From positions 1 to 47,105 of the forward strand of contig JAKSCQ010000042.1 of NCBI GenBank assembly GCA_022360555.1: DNA of 47,105 bases. The letters are read 5' to 3'. The notes beneath the pieces were generated by a model, which was not told the origin of the DNA, made no database searches, and worked only from the letters and a program-made list of their open reading frames with translations. A program made the position numbers and the translations under genes. The stretch's first letter is position 1, and each line of letters begins with the position of its first letter. Positions 20,339 to 35,900 of this stretch are shown piece after piece. Source of the stretch: Pseudomonadales bacterium (GTDB lineage: Bacteria; Pseudomonadota; Gammaproteobacteria; Pseudomonadales; Alcanivoracaceae).

Positions 20339-23300
20339 ATGCTGATCCTCTCCGGAAGCCCGGCCCTGTCCGCATTTCGTAAGGAAAAACTGCTTGAGTC
20401 CCTGACGGGTGTTACCGCGATTTCGGCTCGCTATGTTCATTTCGTAGCGCTCCGCGAGCCGCTCGACAGCCATCAGCAGCAGGTGCTTGAGGGGTTGCTG
20501 GAATACGGCCCCGCCCTGGAAGAGGACAATGTGGAAGGGCAGCGCTTTGTGGTGGTGCCGCGCCCCGGCACCATTTCGCCCTGGTCCTCCAAGGCCACGG
20601 ATATCTGTCACAACGCCGGTTTGACCCAGGTGGAGCGGGTGGAGCGCGGTATCGAATATCACCTGGCCGGGGAGGGCGATCGCAGCGAACTGGCCGCAGC
20701 CCTGCACGACCGCATGGTGGAGGTGGTGCTGGCGGAGCTGGACGAGGCCGACGCCCTGTTTACCCATCATCAGCCCCGTGAGCTGACCACGGTGGACGTG
20801 ATTGGCGGTGGCCGGGCAGCGCTGGAAGCGGCCAATGGCGAGCTGGGGCTGGCGCTGGCCGATGACGAAATCGATTACCTGGTGGAGCGCTTCACTGCCC
20901 TGGGCCGCAATCCTTCCGATGCGGAACTGATGATGTTCGCCCAGGCCAATTCCGAGCACTGCCGGCACAAGATCTTCAATGCGGACTGGACCATTGACGG
21001 TGAGGAGCAGGCGCTGAGCCTGTTCGGCATGATTCGCAACACCTACAACAAGGCCCCGGAAGGGGTGCTCAGCGCCTACAAGGATAATGCCTCCGTGGTG
21101 GCCGGCCCGGTGGCCGACCGCTTCTTTCCGGCGCCGGACAATGCCCAGTACCAGTTCGTCAACGAACCGGTACACCTGCTGATGAAGGTGGAAACCCACA
21201 ACCATCCCACCGCCATCGCCCCCCATCCCGGCGCCGCCACCGGTTCCGGCGGGGAAATCCGTGATGAGGGTGCCACTGGCCGGGGCTCCAAGCCCAAGGC
21301 GGGCCTGACCGGTTTTTCTGTCTCCAATCTGAACATACCCGGCTTCGAGCAGCCTTGGGAGCAGCCCTACGGCAAGCCCGGGCGGATCGCCTCCGCACTG
21401 GATATCATGATTGAAGGGCCCATCGGTGGCGCCGCCTTCAACAACGAATTCGGTCGCCCCAACCTGTGTGGCTATTTCCGTACCCTGGAAATCGAGGCCC
21501 CGGGGGTGAATGGCGATGAAGTACGCGGTTACCACAAGCCGATCATGATCGCCGGTGGCCTGGGCAATATTCGCGATGACCACGTGGAAAAGAACCCGAT
21601 TCCCGCCGGTGCCAAAATCATCGTGCTGGGTGGGCCGGCCATGCTGATCGGCCTGGGCGGTGGCGCGGCCAGTTCCATGGCCTCCGGTGAATCCGACGAG
21701 ACTCTGGATTTTGCCTCCGTACAGCGCGACAACCCGGAAATCGAGCGCCGGGTGCAGGAGGTCATCGACCGCTGCTGGGCCCAGGGCGACAACAACCCCA
21801 TTGTCTCCATCCACGATGTGGGGGCCGGTGGGCTGTCCAATGCTTTGCCGGAACTGGTCCACGACCACGATATGGGCGCCAGGCTGGAACTGCGCAAAGT
21901 GCCCAGCGCCGAACCCGGCATGAGCCCGGTGGAAATCTGGTGCAACGAAGCCCAGGAACGCTATGTGCTGGCGGTAATGCCGGAGGATATCGAGCGTTTC
22001 GATGCCATCTGCCAGCGTGAGCGCACGCCCTATGCGGTGCTGGGCGAGGCCACCAGCGAAGAACATCTGACCGTCAGTGACGAGCACTTCGGCAAGGCGC
22101 CGGTGGACCTGCCCATGGACCTGCTGTTCGGCAAGCCGCCGAAAATGCAGCGCAGCTTTGATCGCGAGGACTTCCAGCGCCAGACCTTCACCACCGACGG
22201 CATCGACCTGAAAGAGGCCGGCGAGCGGGTTCTGCGCCTGCCCACGGTGGCTTCCAAGAGCTTCCTGATTACCATCGGCGACCGTTCCGTCACCGGCCTG
22301 GTCCATCGTGACCAGATGGTGGGGCCCTGGCAGGTGCCGGTGGCCGACTGTGCGGTGACGGCAACCGGGTTCAACCAGAACACGGGGGAGGCCATGGCCA
22401 TGGGCGAGCGCACCCCGGTGGCCCTGGTGGATGCGGCAGCCTCCGGCCGCATGGCGGTGGCTGAATCCATCACCAATATCACCAGCGCCCATATCGGCGA
22501 TCTGGGGCAGATTCGCCTGTCCGCCAACTGGATGGCCGCCGCAGGCCATCCGGGCGAGGACCAGGCCCTGTTCGATACCGTCAAGACCGTGGGTATGGAG
22601 TTGTGCCCGCAGTTGGGTATCGCCATTCCGGTGGGCAAGGATTCCCTGTCCATGCGCACTGTGTGGAACGAGAAAGGCATCGACAAGAGCGTCACCGCGC
22701 CCCTGTCACTGATCATCTCCGCCTTCTCCACGGTCACCGATATCGACCTGACCGTGACTCCGGAACTGAAGACCGGCGTGGACAGCGAGCTGCTGCTGCT
22801 GGACCTGGGGCGTGGTCAGAATCGCTTGGCCGGTTCAGCCCTGGCCCAGGTGTACGGCAAGGTGGGCGATGTACCGCCGGACCTGGACGATGCCAAGGAC
22901 CTGATCGCCTTCTTCGAGGTGACCCAGCAACTGCTGGCCGAGCGCAAGCTGCTGGCCTACCACGATCGCTCCGATGGCGGTCTCTATACCACCCTGGTAG
23001 AGATGGCCTTTGCCGGCCGCACCGGCCTGGACATCAGCCTGGACCATATCGCCGGCGATGCTCCCGAGGCGGTGGCCGCGTTGTTCGCGGAAGAACTGGG
23101 CGCCGTGTTGCAGGTGGCCAGCGGCCATGTGGACGAGGTGATCAACCGCTACGCGGATGCCGGGCTCAGCCAGTGCGTCTACCGCATTGGCCAGCCGGAC
23201 GAGGACGACGTGATTCGCCTGCGCTTGGGGGGCGGCATCCTGCTGGAAACCCCGCGCCGGGAACTGCAGCGTATCTGGGCGGAAACCAGCTACCAGATCC

Positions 23301-24214
23301 AGTCCCTGCGGGATAACCCGGACTGTGCCCGCCAGGAATTCGATGCCATTCCGGCCAGCAACAGCCCGGGGCTGAATGTGCGTCTGACCTTCGACATGAC
23401 CGAGAACCCGGCGGCACCTTTCATCAATAGCGGAGCCAAACCGAAAATGGCGATCCTGCGCGAGCAGGGCGTCAACGGCCAGACCGAGATGGCGGCGGCC
23501 TTCGACCGGGTGGGCTTCTCCGCCGTGGATGTGCACATGAGTGACCTTCTGGAAGGCCGTGTGCAACTGGAGGACTTCAAGGGCCTGGTGGCCTGTGGCG
23601 GTTTCTCCTACGGGGATGTGCTGGGCGCTGGTGGTGGTTGGGCCAAGACCGTGCTCTATAACGAGTCCCTGCGCGAAGCCTTCAACCGCTTCTTCTTCCG
23701 CGAAGACACGTTTGCCCTGGGGGTATGTAACGGCTGCCAGATGCTGTCGCACCTGAAGGACCTGATCCCCGGTGCCGAGCACTGGCCGCGTTTTGTGCGC
23801 AACCTGTCCGAGCAGTTCGAGGCACGCACCTCCCTGGTGGAAATCCAGGATTCCCCGTCCATCCTGCTCAAGGACATGGCCGGCACCCGCATCCCCATCG
23901 CCGTGGCCCACGGCGAGGGTCGGGTGGAGCTGGCGGATGATGCCCTCAACCGCAACATCGAACAGCGCCTGGTGGCCCTGCGCTATGTGGACGGTCTGGG
24001 CAACCCCGCCGAGCAATACCCGGCCAACCCCAACGGTTCCCCCCAGGGGCTGACGGGCTTCACCACCGCCGATGGCCGTGTGACCATCATGATGCCGCAC
24101 CCGGAGCGGGTCTTCCGTGTCCTGCAGAACAGCTGGATTCCGGATGACTGGCGCGGCCACGAAAACGGCCCCTGGCTGCGGATGTTCGCCAATGCCAGGA
24201 AGTGGGTCGGTTAA
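20339..24214 (+). CDS. purL: Phosphoribosylformylglycinamidine synthase
   Basis: 1291 aa; [52 protein letters not shown]; glutaminase GVCNGCQM and [10 protein letters not shown]. Confidence 0.98.
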
Positions 24215-24220
24215 AAGGCA

Positions 24221-24405
24221 ATTAATAATTAATAGTGAATAATTAATAGCTAAGATCAAAAATGGAAGACTGGGGCGGAAATAGCTTGGCTATTTCCGCC
24301 TTTTTTATGTCCTTTTATGCGCTTGAGCTACAGAGTGTTTCCCCTCAGAATCAAACGATTGTTTGAATCTTTCCGTTATTAATTATTCATTATTAACTAT
24401 TCATT
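24221..24405. repeat. Inverted heptad-repeat element (ATTAATA type)
   Basis: Left arm ATTAATA-ATTAATA-GTGAATA-ATTAATA (24221-24248); right arm 24375-24405 is its imperfect reverse complement. Confidence 0.75.
24274..24307 (+). terminator. Rho-independent terminator after purL
   Basis: GGCGGAAATAG-CTTGG-CTATTTCCGCC followed by TTTTTT. Confidence 0.88.
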
Positions 24406-31324: not shown

Positions 31325-31858
31325 TCAGTCCCATTGTTGAATGGAGACCTGTTGTCCGGCCCCGATCTGCGTGACCGAAACACTGTTGGCGGTACCGTGC
31401 TGCGTGATAGCGGCGTGGTTGTCGATGCCGTACTGGGCAATTTGCGCGGTGTTGTACTCGCCGTTTTGTTCAAGCGTGATGGTGTTGTAGGAACCGTGCT
31501 GATAGAGGGAAGCGCTGTTGCCCAGACCGTACTGGCTGACAACGGCCAGGTTTTCCCAGCCGAGCTGGGTAATGTCGGCCTGCTGGTCGGTGCCGTACTG
31601 GATAATGTCGGCCTGGTTGGCAAAGCCGTTCTGACGGATGACGGCGTCGTGGCCGATGCCGGTCTGGGCAATCTCGGCGGTCTGATTGCCCGTCTGCTCG
31701 ATTCGGGCAGACAGGTCACTGCCGGATTGATCAATGTCCGCTTCGTTGCCAAGCGGAAACTCATGGGTGCTGGACAGGTCCGACGCTATGGCCGCAGATG
31801 TCATTGCCAGCAGCACGATCGCTGTGATGCAAAGCCCCACGATATGCCCGATTCTCAT
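31325..31858 (-). CDS. csgB: Curlin-repeat minor subunit, CsgB-like
   Basis: Signal peptide; repeats NEADIDQSGSDLSARIEQTGNQTAEIAQTG; upstream of csgA-like gene. Confidence 0.85.
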   Translation of the reverse strand: MRIGHIVGLCITAIVLLAMTSAAIASDLSSTHEFPLGNEADIDQSGSDLSARIEQTGNQTAEIAQTGIGHDAVIRQNGFANQADIIQYGTDQQADITQLGWENLAVVSQYGLGNSASLYQHGSYNTITLEQNGEYNTAQIAQYGIDNHAAITQHGTANSVSVTQIGAGQQVSIQQWD

Positions 31859-33345: not shown

Positions 33346-33550
33346 AGCAGTGCCGATCTCACCCTGTGTTTCTATTTGTGCCCTGGACGAGAATGATATT
33401 TGCGTGGGCTGTTTTCGCACGGGGGGAGAAATTTCCATCTGGGGGCTGCTGTCCGATGACGAAAAGCGCGAGGTATACCGCCGTATTCCCCTGCGTATGG
33501 AAGGGAAGGTGGCGCCCTGTGTGGTAAGGAAGGAGAAGAGATCATCATGA
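33338..33550 (+). CDS. DUF1289 domain-containing protein
   Basis: SPCVSICALDENDICVGCFRTGGEISIWGLLSDDEKREV. Confidence 0.9.
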   Translation: MTEAVPISPCVSICALDENDICVGCFRTGGEISIWGLLSDDEKREVYRRIPLRMEGKVAPCVVRKEKRSS

Positions 33551-34476
33551 GTCCGCAGGTAGGCGAAGGCGTGCCGTCAGCCCCGGTGGTGGGGCTGGCG
33601 CTGGGCAGTGGGTCCGCCCGGGGCTGGGCCCACATCGGTGTGATTCAGGCGCTGGAAGAGATGGGGGTGCAGCCCCAGGTCGTGGCGGGGACATCCATCG
33701 GCGCTATTGTCGGCAGTGCCTATGTGACTGGCGTGCTCAACGAATTCGGCGAGTGGGTGAAGTCCCTGACGGTGAAGGATGTCTTCGGTTTGATGGATTT
33801 TTCGCTGTCCGGTGGCATGGTGAAAGGGGAGAAGCTGTTCAACTTCTTCCGCGAACACCATGAAGACCCGGACATGGAAAGCCTGGAGAAAAAACTGGTC
33901 ACCGTGGCCACGGACATGAAAAGCGGGCGGGAAATCTGGATTACCCGGGGCAAGGTGCTGGATGCGGCCCGGGCCTCCTGTGCGTTGCCGGGGCTGTTTT
34001 CGCCGGTCAAGGTGCAGGGGCGTTGGATGCTGGATGGCGGCTTGGTCAACCCGGTGCCGGTGTCCGCGGCCCGGGCCATGGGTGCGGATGTGGTGATTGC
34101 CGTCAACCTCAACGCCCAGCTGGTCGGCGCCCACCTGTCCCGCGATACCCGAAGCCAGGTGGAAGGCGAAAGCCCGACAGAGGAAGAGCGCAGCATCTGG
34201 CAGAAAATGATGGACTACTTTTCCTCTGAAGACGGTACGGACCCGGGGTTCTTCGATGTGGTGGCCTCCAGCATCAACATCATGCAGGACCGCATCACCC
34301 GCTCACGCATGGCCGGCGACCCGCCGGAAGTGACCCTGATTCCCCTGCTGGAAGACTTCGCCCTGATGGACTTCCATCGCGCCAAAGAGGCCATCGAGGA
34401 AGGCCGATCACTGGTCAAACGCTATGAAGCTGATATTCGCGCCTGGGTGGGGTCGCCGTTGGCGGATAGGGTTTGA
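33547..34476 (+). CDS. Patatin-like phospholipase, RssA-like
   Basis: LGSGSARGWAHIGVIQALEEMG; GTSIGAIVGSAY; DGGLVNPVPV. Confidence 0.93.
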   Translation: MSPQVGEGVPSAPVVGLALGSGSARGWAHIGVIQALEEMGVQPQVVAGTSIGAIVGSAYVTGVLNEFGEWVKSLTVKDVFGLMDFSLSGGMVKGEKLFNFFREHHEDPDMESLEKKLVTVATDMKSGREIWITRGKVLDAARASCALPGLFSPVKVQGRWMLDGGLVNPVPVSAARAMGADVVIAVNLNAQLVGAHLSRDTRSQVEGESPTEEERSIWQKMMDYFSSEDGTDPGFFDVVASSINIMQDRITRSRMAGDPPEVTLIPLLEDFALMDFHRAKEAIEEGRSLVKRYEADIRAWVGSPLADRV

Positions 34477-34481
34477 AGAGG

Positions 34482-34643
34482 CAGTTGACAGTTGATAGTG
34501 GACAGTTGACAGCTGCGCGATCGAACTTCCTGTTTTCTTAAATCAATGAGGCCGCGCCCAACCTTTGAGCGCGGCCTCTTGCGTTCCAAGATACCCCCTA
34601 CGGTTAACGCGCAGCTGTCAACTGTCCACTATCAACTGTCCAC
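34482..34643. repeat. Inverted heptad-repeat element (GTTGACA type) flanking a terminator-like hairpin
   Basis: GTTGACA-GTTGATA-GTGGACA-GTTGACA-GCTGCGCG; 33-bp perfect inverted match with 34608-34640. Confidence 0.9.
34548..34578. terminator. Terminator-like hairpin between convergent genes
   Basis: GAGGCCGCGC ... GCGCGGCCTC perfect 10-bp stem. Confidence 0.65.
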
Positions 34644-35900
34644 TTAATCCGCCTTCCTGGCCTTCACCGCCTTCACCATATTGTCCTTAACCTGCAGGAT
34701 CTCGATCTGGTAATGATCGATTTTCACCGAAATATTGGCGTCGGGGATGTCCTGCAGGTATTCCAGGATCAGGCCGTTGAGGGTCTTGGGGCCGTCGGTG
34801 GGGAGGTCCCAGTCCAGGCTGCGGTTGATTTCACGCAGGGTGGCTGAGCCGTCGATCACATAGCTGTCGTCATCCTGGGGGTGGATGTCCGGGCTGCTGG
34901 CGGCCAGGTCGGTGGTGAACTCGCCGACAATTTCTTCCAGGATATCTTCCAGCGTCACCAGGCCCAGCACGTCACCGTATTCGTCCACCACGATGCCAAT
35001 GCGCCGTTTGGCATTCTGGAAATTGATCAGTTGTTGATGCAGTGAGGTGCCCTCGGGGACGAAGTAGGGCTCCACCGTGTACTGCATCAGCTCGGCCTTG
35101 TTGATGTCTTCCTTGAGCAGCAGGCGGCTCAGCTTCCGCAGGTGCAGCAACCCGATCATGTTGTTGGGGTCACCGTTGAACACCGGCAGGCGGGTGTGCT
35201 GGCTGGAACGCAGGGTGGTGAGGATGTCGTGCATGTCATCCTCCAGATCGATCCCCACCATCTCGTTGCGCGGCACCATGATGTCTTCCACCGTCACGGA
35301 TTCCAGGTCCAGGATGTTCAGCAACATCTTCTGGTGACTTTCCGGAATCAGGCCGCCGGCTTCGTTGACCACAGTACGTAGCTCTTCGGGACTGAGGTGG
35401 TCGTCATCCTGTTCATTGGTGCGAATGCCAGCCATACGCAGCAGCACATTGCTCACCCCGTTCACCATCCATACCAGCGGTGCCAGCAGCACCTGCAGCG
35501 GTTTGAGCAGCAGGCTGGCGGGAAAGGCCACCCGTTCCGGGCGCATGGCGGCAAAGGTTTTCGGGGTGATCTCGGCGAACACCAACATGATGATGGTGAT
35601 CACCACTGGGGCAACGGCCGCCCCGCTGTCGCCCAGCCAGCGAATCGCCAGAATGGCCGCCACGGTGGCGGCGAAGTTGTTGACGAAATTGTTGCCGATC
35701 AGGATTACGGACAGCAGCCGGTCGGTGCGTCTGAGCAAGGCTTCCACCCGGGTGGCCGCCTTGTGTCCCTGGCGGGCCAGATGGCGGAGCCGGTAGCGGT
35801 TGATCGCCACCATGCCGGTTTCACTGCTGGAGAAAAATGCCGAGCCGAAAATCAGGGCTACGAGGGCGCCAATCAGCCACCCGTCAGAGAAGGTATCCAA
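34644..35900 (-). CDS. HlyC/CorC family (CNNM domain + CBS pair) transporter-like protein
   Basis: FFSSSETGMVAINRYRLRHLARQGHKAA; VEDIMVPRNEMVGID; IGIVVDEYGDVLGLVTLEDILEEIVGEF. Confidence 0.94.
   Translation of the reverse strand: MDTFSDGWLIGALVALIFGSAFFSSSETGMVAINRYRLRHLARQGHKAATRVEALLRRTDRLLSVILIGNNFVNNFAATVAAILAIRWLGDSGAAVAPVVITIIMLVFAEITPKTFAAMRPERVAFPASLLLKPLQVLLAPLVWMVNGVSNVLLRMAGIRTNEQDDDHLSPEELRTVVNEAGGLIPESHQKMLLNILDLESVTVEDIMVPRNEMVGIDLEDDMHDILTTLRSSQHTRLPVFNGDPNNMIGLLHLRKLSRLLLKEDINKAELMQYTVEPYFVPEGTSLHQQLINFQNAKRRIGIVVDEYGDVLGLVTLEDILEEIVGEFTTDLAASSPDIHPQDDDSYVIDGSATLREINRSLDWDLPTDGPKTLNGLILEYLQDIPDANISVKIDHYQIEILQVKDNMVKAVKARKAD

Follow-up and report, generated by a model that had tools for sequence, protein, structure and literature searches.

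A stretch of 47,105 nucleotides from a Pseudomonadales bacterium of the Alcanivoracaceae (GenBank assembly GCA_022360555.1, contig JAKSCQ010000042.1), referred to here as the window, contains two small intergenic elements, each bounded by inverted arms built of tandem seven-nucleotide units (heptads). These elements, their relatives across the genus, and a gene for a four-helix-bundle protein enclosed by the same kind of arms are the subject of this report. Element 1 follows purL (FGAM synthase, recognized by Pfam matches; 20339-24214, plus strand), with the purL stop codon 6 nt ahead of its left arm. This arm (24221-24248, plus strand) reads ATTAATA, ATTAATA, GTGAATA, and ATTAATA and belongs to what is called below the ATTAATA class, and the right arm (24377-24404, minus strand) reads ATGAATA, GTTAATA, ATGAATA, and ATTAATA on the minus strand. 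Between them lie the intrinsic purL terminator (24272-24302, plus strand), already noticed in an earlier note on this DNA, which has a 14-bp stem and a T-run and is conserved in 17 of 17 congeners, and a motif of no assigned strand, AGAATCAAACGATTGTTTGAA (24347-24367), that is conserved between species despite changes of arm class. Element 2 sits in a convergent gene pair, downstream of a patatin-like phospholipase gene (33547-34476, plus strand) and facing a CNNM/CBS/CorC_HlyC gene (34644-35900, minus strand). Its left arm (34484-34511, plus strand; GTTGACA, GTTGATA, GTGGACA, GTTGACA) is of the GTTGACA class, and its right arm (34616-34643, minus strand; GTGGACA, GTTGATA, GTGGACA, GTTGACA in minus-strand reading) meets with its outer end the stop codon of the minus-strand gene at 34644. 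The enclosed bidirectional terminator-like hairpin, GAGGCCGCGCCC...GCGCGGCCTC (34548-34578, no assigned strand), is typical of a family of elements of ∼160 bp.

Both window elements are inverted arm pairs (30-nt arms, 90% complementary; 37-nt arms, 97% complementary) that contain no open reading frame (ORF) and, as RNA, fold far more strongly than shuffled sequence (z -6.7 and -13.7). The left arm of element 1, extended to 24221-24251, aligns without gaps to 34484-34514 of element 2, and the 10 mismatches in 31 positions are all A/G or T/C, exactly as first noted; they fall at positions 1, 4, and 6 of the first heptad, 1 and 4 of the second, 4 and 6 of the third, and 1, 4, and 6 of the fourth. 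The right arms (24377-24404 and 34616-34643, in minus-strand reading) likewise show 10 differences, solely transitions. The heptad arms of the window are not a product of chance, because RTTRAYARTTRAYA, with up to two mismatches, has 16 matches in the window compared with 2.6 expected, and because the 28-mer RTTRAYARTTRAYARTKRAYARTTRAYA has 61 copies (30+31) in the genome of the window compared with three (2+1) for the reversed control.

The same 28-mer is present in 16 of 16 congeners searched, although one of these, genome G015, in which the arms are decayed remnants, has a single copy; named matches of the 28-mer identify the genus as Alcanivorax. Both window elements belong to a genus-wide family of palindromic elements of ∼160 bp, in support of the earlier proposal that the two are related. 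Exactly four heptads make up 181 of the 206 arms collected, and 166 of the 206 fit the consensus RTKRAYA without mismatch. Most collected arms are paired in inverted orientation, in elements that span ∼158-160 bp and have a bidirectional, GC-rich terminator; the remaining elements are 81-126 bp in length or, like the one at purL, surround a native terminator. Arms adjoin or overlap stop codons, mostly between convergent genes, and as tandem 7-bp units dispersed in intergenic DNA they are heptanucleotide repeats of the kind known as short tandemly repeated repetitive sequences or heptameric simple sequence repeats. At the ech site (L043, L244, G014), GTGAACA is expanded to 18, 11, and 15 copies in single arms. 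A second repeat of ∼160 bp (L215:10488-10646, on G006:C1) occurs in ∼25 copies, 81-90% identical, in G006, G003, G001, and other genomes, and is missing from the orthologous site in G001, G010, and G011.

The comparison across the genus covered six orthologous sites, with pairwise transition:transversion counts that serve as descriptions and not as tests, since species pairs are not independent. Arms stand at constant positions in four coherent classes, GTTGACA, ATTGATA, GTTAACA, and ATTAATA. Transitions dominate at heptad position 1 (980:3), position 4 (861:23), and position 6 (874:203), whereas position 3 toggles between T and G almost solely by transversion (1:644). A strict restriction to transitions, and the purine/pyrimidine pattern that the earlier note took to be held throughout, is thus a property of three heptad positions. 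That note had suggested a transition-biased mutational process or a bare constraint on the purine/pyrimidine pattern as the cause. The near-exclusive transitions at positions 1 and 4 would suit either, yet mutation bias does not explain the pattern, because sequence at the same sites is far less transition-biased (transition:transversion ratio 0.61 in the enclosed purL terminator region and 1.31 in purL coding sequence) and position 3 shows transversions. Changes in coherent blocks, together with the position 3 toggle, speak against the bare constraint, and both proposals are now highly improbable.

Intermediate heptads, which the same note had proposed to look for, do exist, and GTTAATA and ATTGATA are common, yet four-heptad arms are coherent in class: of 115 arms at orthologous sites, 111 have the same base at position 4 throughout, and the two arms of an element concur in 42 of 44 cases. 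At orthologous sites entire arms, and often entire elements, change class as blocks, gains and losses within arms are often multiples of seven, and whole 160-bp elements with unrelated interiors swap at one site across species. At the acyl-CoA-dehydrogenase (acd) site, G008, G002, G007, and G016 share an element that is 95-99% identical between flanks that are 77-89% identical, and closer relatives of these four species hold elements of other classes. Divergence of one ancestral element in place, the history first envisaged for the two window elements, does not fit this block switching, nor the finding, described below, that class tracks the sequence of a partner protein gene.

When ORFs enclosed by inverted heptad arms were sought, the partner gene came to light as a member of the family PF05635, which recurred in three bacterial groups. 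This is the 23S-rRNA-intervening-sequence protein (IVP), also known as S23p, 'four helix bundle protein', or TIGR02436 (NCBI). A single IVP gene lies 14-33 bp inside inverted RTKRAYA arms in 16 of 16 arm-rich congeners and in three of three arm-bearing genomes of the sister genus, and in all 19 the locus is the interval between glyA and nrdR, two genes named from translated flanks and not from a family search. In each of the 19 the element combines a PF05635/TIGR02436 ORF with terminal inverted repeats of ∼28 bp, outside any 23S rRNA helix; its length in the genus is ∼440-460 bp, and the copy in the genome of the window is at G000:C83:31162-31625. No PF05635 match was found in G015, the congener with decayed arms, or in 14 control genomes. 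Other PF05635 paralogs of the arm-bearing genomes lack RTKRAYA arms, and many are accompanied by other heptads.

IVP sequence clusters by arm class and not by species. The 19 IVP genes form four clades, one for each arm class, so that class changes only three times on the IVP tree, the minimum, compared with nine times on the tree of the glyA/nrdR flanks (shuffled mean 10.6), and the flank sequences reject each class as a clade (approximately unbiased test, p 3e-4 to 3e-76). Dispersed arms also match the IVP class of their own genome more often than expected (54 of 115, compared with 25; p 0.001), and those that do not match look like older layers.

Within the genus, Q54/Y54 and S,A66/H66 (residues counted by hand) separate proteins whose arms have G at position 4 from those with A, and N73/S73 separates GTTRACA from ATTRATA. 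Among 39 arm-flanked IVPs from several phyla, Q, H, or E at residue 54 goes with G at position 4 (23 of 23) and Y or G with A (16 of 16), while residue 66 is small with G and usually H, K, R, or Q with A. Residue 73 was considered as a universal determinant of positions 1 and 6, a rule that fails beyond the Alcanivoracaceae. The predicted IVP structure is a four-helix bundle (mean pLDDT 95) in which the turn that joins helices 2 and 3 holds residue 54, and helix 3 holds residues 66 and 73, seven residues apart. The predicted fold matches 2RLD (BT_0352), which has Q and N in the columns of residues 54 and 73, and Xcc0516, which is reported to be a homopentamer (PMC4990558). A weaker match is to Avd of diversity-generating retroelements (4DWL, 8UB7), which has a similar four-helix bundle by Foldseek (TM up to 0.77, E 0.05). 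Avd, a pentamer, is a ribonucleoprotein component that acts with a reverse transcriptase, and its likeness to the IVP is one of fold only.

The association extends beyond the genus and across phyla. Tracts with 7-bp periodicity on both sides, with the same heptad inverted, flank 57 of 141 distinct PF05635-like ORFs compared with 10 of 1259 control ORFs (odds ratio 85, p 1e-51); as absolute values these fractions are approximate, since many loci were picked by heptad searches, and the controls came from loci mostly chosen for heptads and were unmatched for length or position. Heptads vary by IVP subfamily and include CAAGCTA, GTCGGAC, AAGGGGC, GGGAACA, GTAATTC, TAACTGA, and many more, and most of ten named plasmid-borne IVP copies have the same flanking arrangement. 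Individual IVP genes were also found at the following places: between cas2 and cas1 on an Anabaena cylindrica plasmid (L607), as a broken gene between hsdS and hsdR in Monoglobus (L605), and between DUF1156 and Swt1-HEPN genes in Chlorohelix and Gloeocapsa (L608, L609). In Oscillospiraceae (L068, L080, L096, L147, and genome G060), heptad-armed elements of near-constant length contain hairpins of their own, and their left arms differ from their right arms, with ∼145 bp between arm starts in G060.

The explanation favored here, with a probability of roughly 0.7, is that the two elements of the window belong, as non-autonomous members, to a family of selfish elements with heptad arms, and that the arms are putative tandem recognition units for the resident IVP. 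Arm class, in effect a dialect, is very probably set by this four-helix-bundle protein. Arms would be class-coherent because an arm holds four heptad copies, and a shifted protein preference would act on the same position of every heptad together. Purines and pyrimidines would be kept, while a few protein residues would decide between G and A (positions 1 and 4) or C and T (position 6); for position 4 the main one would be residue 54, together with 66. Residue 73 tracks positions 1 and 6 in Alcanivoracaceae only. Most likely an IVP oligomer binds the heptads of both arms and thereby pairs them; direct binding, its stoichiometry, the form bound (RNA hairpin or DNA), the mobilizing enzyme, and mobility itself are all inferred, whereas the data above show the architecture, the linkage, the coherence of arms, the concordance of class with protein, and block replacement. 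Elements may be copied into, or replace one another at, intergenic sites directly past stop codons, where the enclosed terminator would render an insertion harmless or useful. More tentatively, at somewhat less than even odds, the whole IVP/S23p family, a large one, may read nucleic acids in modular fashion, each subunit taking up one 7-nt repeat and each base of the heptad being set by a few residues, such that each IVP founds its own heptad-armed selfish population; this would explain the dispersed heptanucleotide repeats found in cyanobacteria, Beggiatoaceae, Xanthomonas, Bacteroidota, and Clostridia.

Several findings count against the selfish-element explanation. The IVP gene occupies one locus in all 19 genomes, and its own mobility is visible solely as replacement; neither a clean empty site nor a target-site duplication was found at the six orthologous loci. 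At purL the arms changed and the interior was kept, for which block transposition alone does not account. Of 35 other genomes that contain arm matches, seven lack a PF05635 match, ∼60% of IVP genes failed the both-sides criterion, and G009 and G012 have no sampled arms of their own IVP class. The residue 54 rule rests on about four independent changes, two of them on branches with good support; every one goes the way expected, but they are too few for significance by themselves, and residue 73 is not predictive of positions 1 and 6 outside the Alcanivoracaceae.

The main rival gives the arms a regulatory role, one that is compatible with selfish spread and does not exclude it. An RNA-binding IVP would bind heptad hairpins in 3′ untranslated regions, tune termination or mRNA decay, and autoregulate its own gene, at sites selected by the host, and class switching would be coevolution of regulator and sites. 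Arms that adjoin stop codons and enclose terminators, the strong RNA folding of both window elements, the fixed glyA-nrdR location, the conservation of sites across species, and the resemblance to a ribonucleoprotein component such as Avd are all in keeping with such a regulon. It is harder to see, however, why a regulon would flank functionally unrelated genes, why elements with unrelated interiors would replace each other at a site, why the congener without an IVP would tolerate decay of the sites examined, and why non-pairing differences between arms at position 3 would be so frequent, and this account is judged rather unlikely. A simpler form of the argument, in which the arms are mere long RNA stems under selection for pairing, with G-U intermediates that ease transitions and an IVP link that is a by-product, would predict the transitions at positions 1, 4, and 6, the strong folding, and the left-right arm identity of 88% within elements compared with 77% when arms are shuffled among elements. 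Yet in 35% of heptads the left and right arms disagree at position 3 (T/G), so that base pairs are lost, and among the discordances the G-U orientation is only slightly more frequent than A-C (58 vs 45, own tally). Pairing alone requires neither the heptad periodicity nor the same base at position 4 of all eight heptads, and it leaves the match with IVP clades unpredicted; the concordance of arms with IVP class already makes this reading improbable.

REPIN-type elements mobilized by a RAYT (Y1) transposase share the inverted-pair architecture, and PF01797 occurs in all 16 arm-bearing congeners but not in G015. However, none of the Y1 matches in 20 stretches is directly flanked by heptad arms (the nearest is ∼2.5 kb away), many Y1 genes have conventional REP-like palindromes instead, and the arms are heptad arrays that lack the REP hairpin with its conserved tetranucleotide, so that a RAYT origin is very improbable. 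In the Alcanivorax RAYT loci surveyed (L276-L295), RAYT genes are commonly flanked by REP-like palindromes, a repeat system separate from the heptad arms.

Other candidate readings were rejected. Genes between arms 1.4 kb apart are ordinary chromosomal genes (an MscS-like channel and others). A function as multi-frame stop codons suits the TRA stops within RTTRAYA, but the common GTTGACA arm, checked by hand, is stop-free in one frame. A rule that forbids the A1-C6 pair on account of G-U wobble is valid in Alcanivorax and fails in other phyla, where ATTGACA is common. The analogy with DNA-uptake sequences was set aside, as several classes coexist per genome and a partner gene exists, as was virus-borne spread, with 55 matching stretches among 2.9 million viral contigs. 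Elsewhere in the window, positions 31558-31633 hold a 33-bp tandem repeat of 2.3 copies within an ORF.

Comparable systems have been described separately. The 23S rRNA intervening sequence of Coxiella burnetii is 428 nt long, encodes S23p in an ORF within 28-bp terminal inverted repeats, and is suspected to be selfish (PMC4990558). Elements of the glyA-nrdR type resemble it in protein family, size (∼430-460 bp), placement of the ORF inside terminal inverted repeats, and suspected selfishness, but they are intergenic (at glyA-nrdR and many 3′ ends) rather than located in rRNA, they come with a large non-autonomous, terminator-bearing population, and their arm classes match protein clades; the arms here are tandem heptads, a build that the rRNA arms may share. 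Dispersed intergenic tandem heptads have been reported as GGGAATC in Xanthomonas and GGGGA(T/C)T in Nostoc (PMC4692102). The Xanthomonas repeats, with ∼70-75 inverted pairs in convergent orientation and positions usually kept between species, resemble the elements described here, but differ in heptad sequence and, in the passages searched, are ascribed to G-quadruplexes with no link to mobile elements or proteins. TAACTGA heptamer repeats are likewise tandem heptads, with a patchy distribution across phyla (Beggiatoaceae, cyanobacteria, and Bacteroidetes), but were published, in the part of the paper covered, as direct repeats near start codons and proposed translational control sites, without an IVP link (PMC4679880). 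A cyanobacterial IVP gene (L558) is flanked on its downstream side by TAACTGA, the heptad reported to be abundant in Beggiatoaceae, and on its upstream side by GTTAACA heptads.

The elements are short, non-coding, and dispersed in many copies with terminal inverted repeats, as are miniature inverted-repeat transposable elements (MITEs), and like MITEs and REPIN/RAYT systems (PMC3116915) they are intergenic and have a rarer coding partner with matching ends. In contrast to both, the partner is a four-helix-bundle protein with no recognized transposase domain, the IVP not being a known transposase; the arms are heptad arrays and not a hairpin, and target duplication is not seen. No earlier report of a link between IVPs and heptad repeats was found in the open-access PMC papers covered, and reports elsewhere remain possible.

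Genes annotated as 'four helix bundle protein' are very common, occur in bacteria of many phyla, and have had no assigned function since the first intervening sequences were described, and dispersed heptanucleotide repeats have likewise had no known maker. A link between the two joins these unexplained genome features and yields for both a hypothesis that can be tested directly, with point mutations among its means that would be expected to switch sequence preference. It also presents the small terminator-carrying elements at gene ends as cassettes exchanged between species. Were each subunit indeed to read a single heptad, the family would provide a scaffold for repeat binding that is both simple and programmable.
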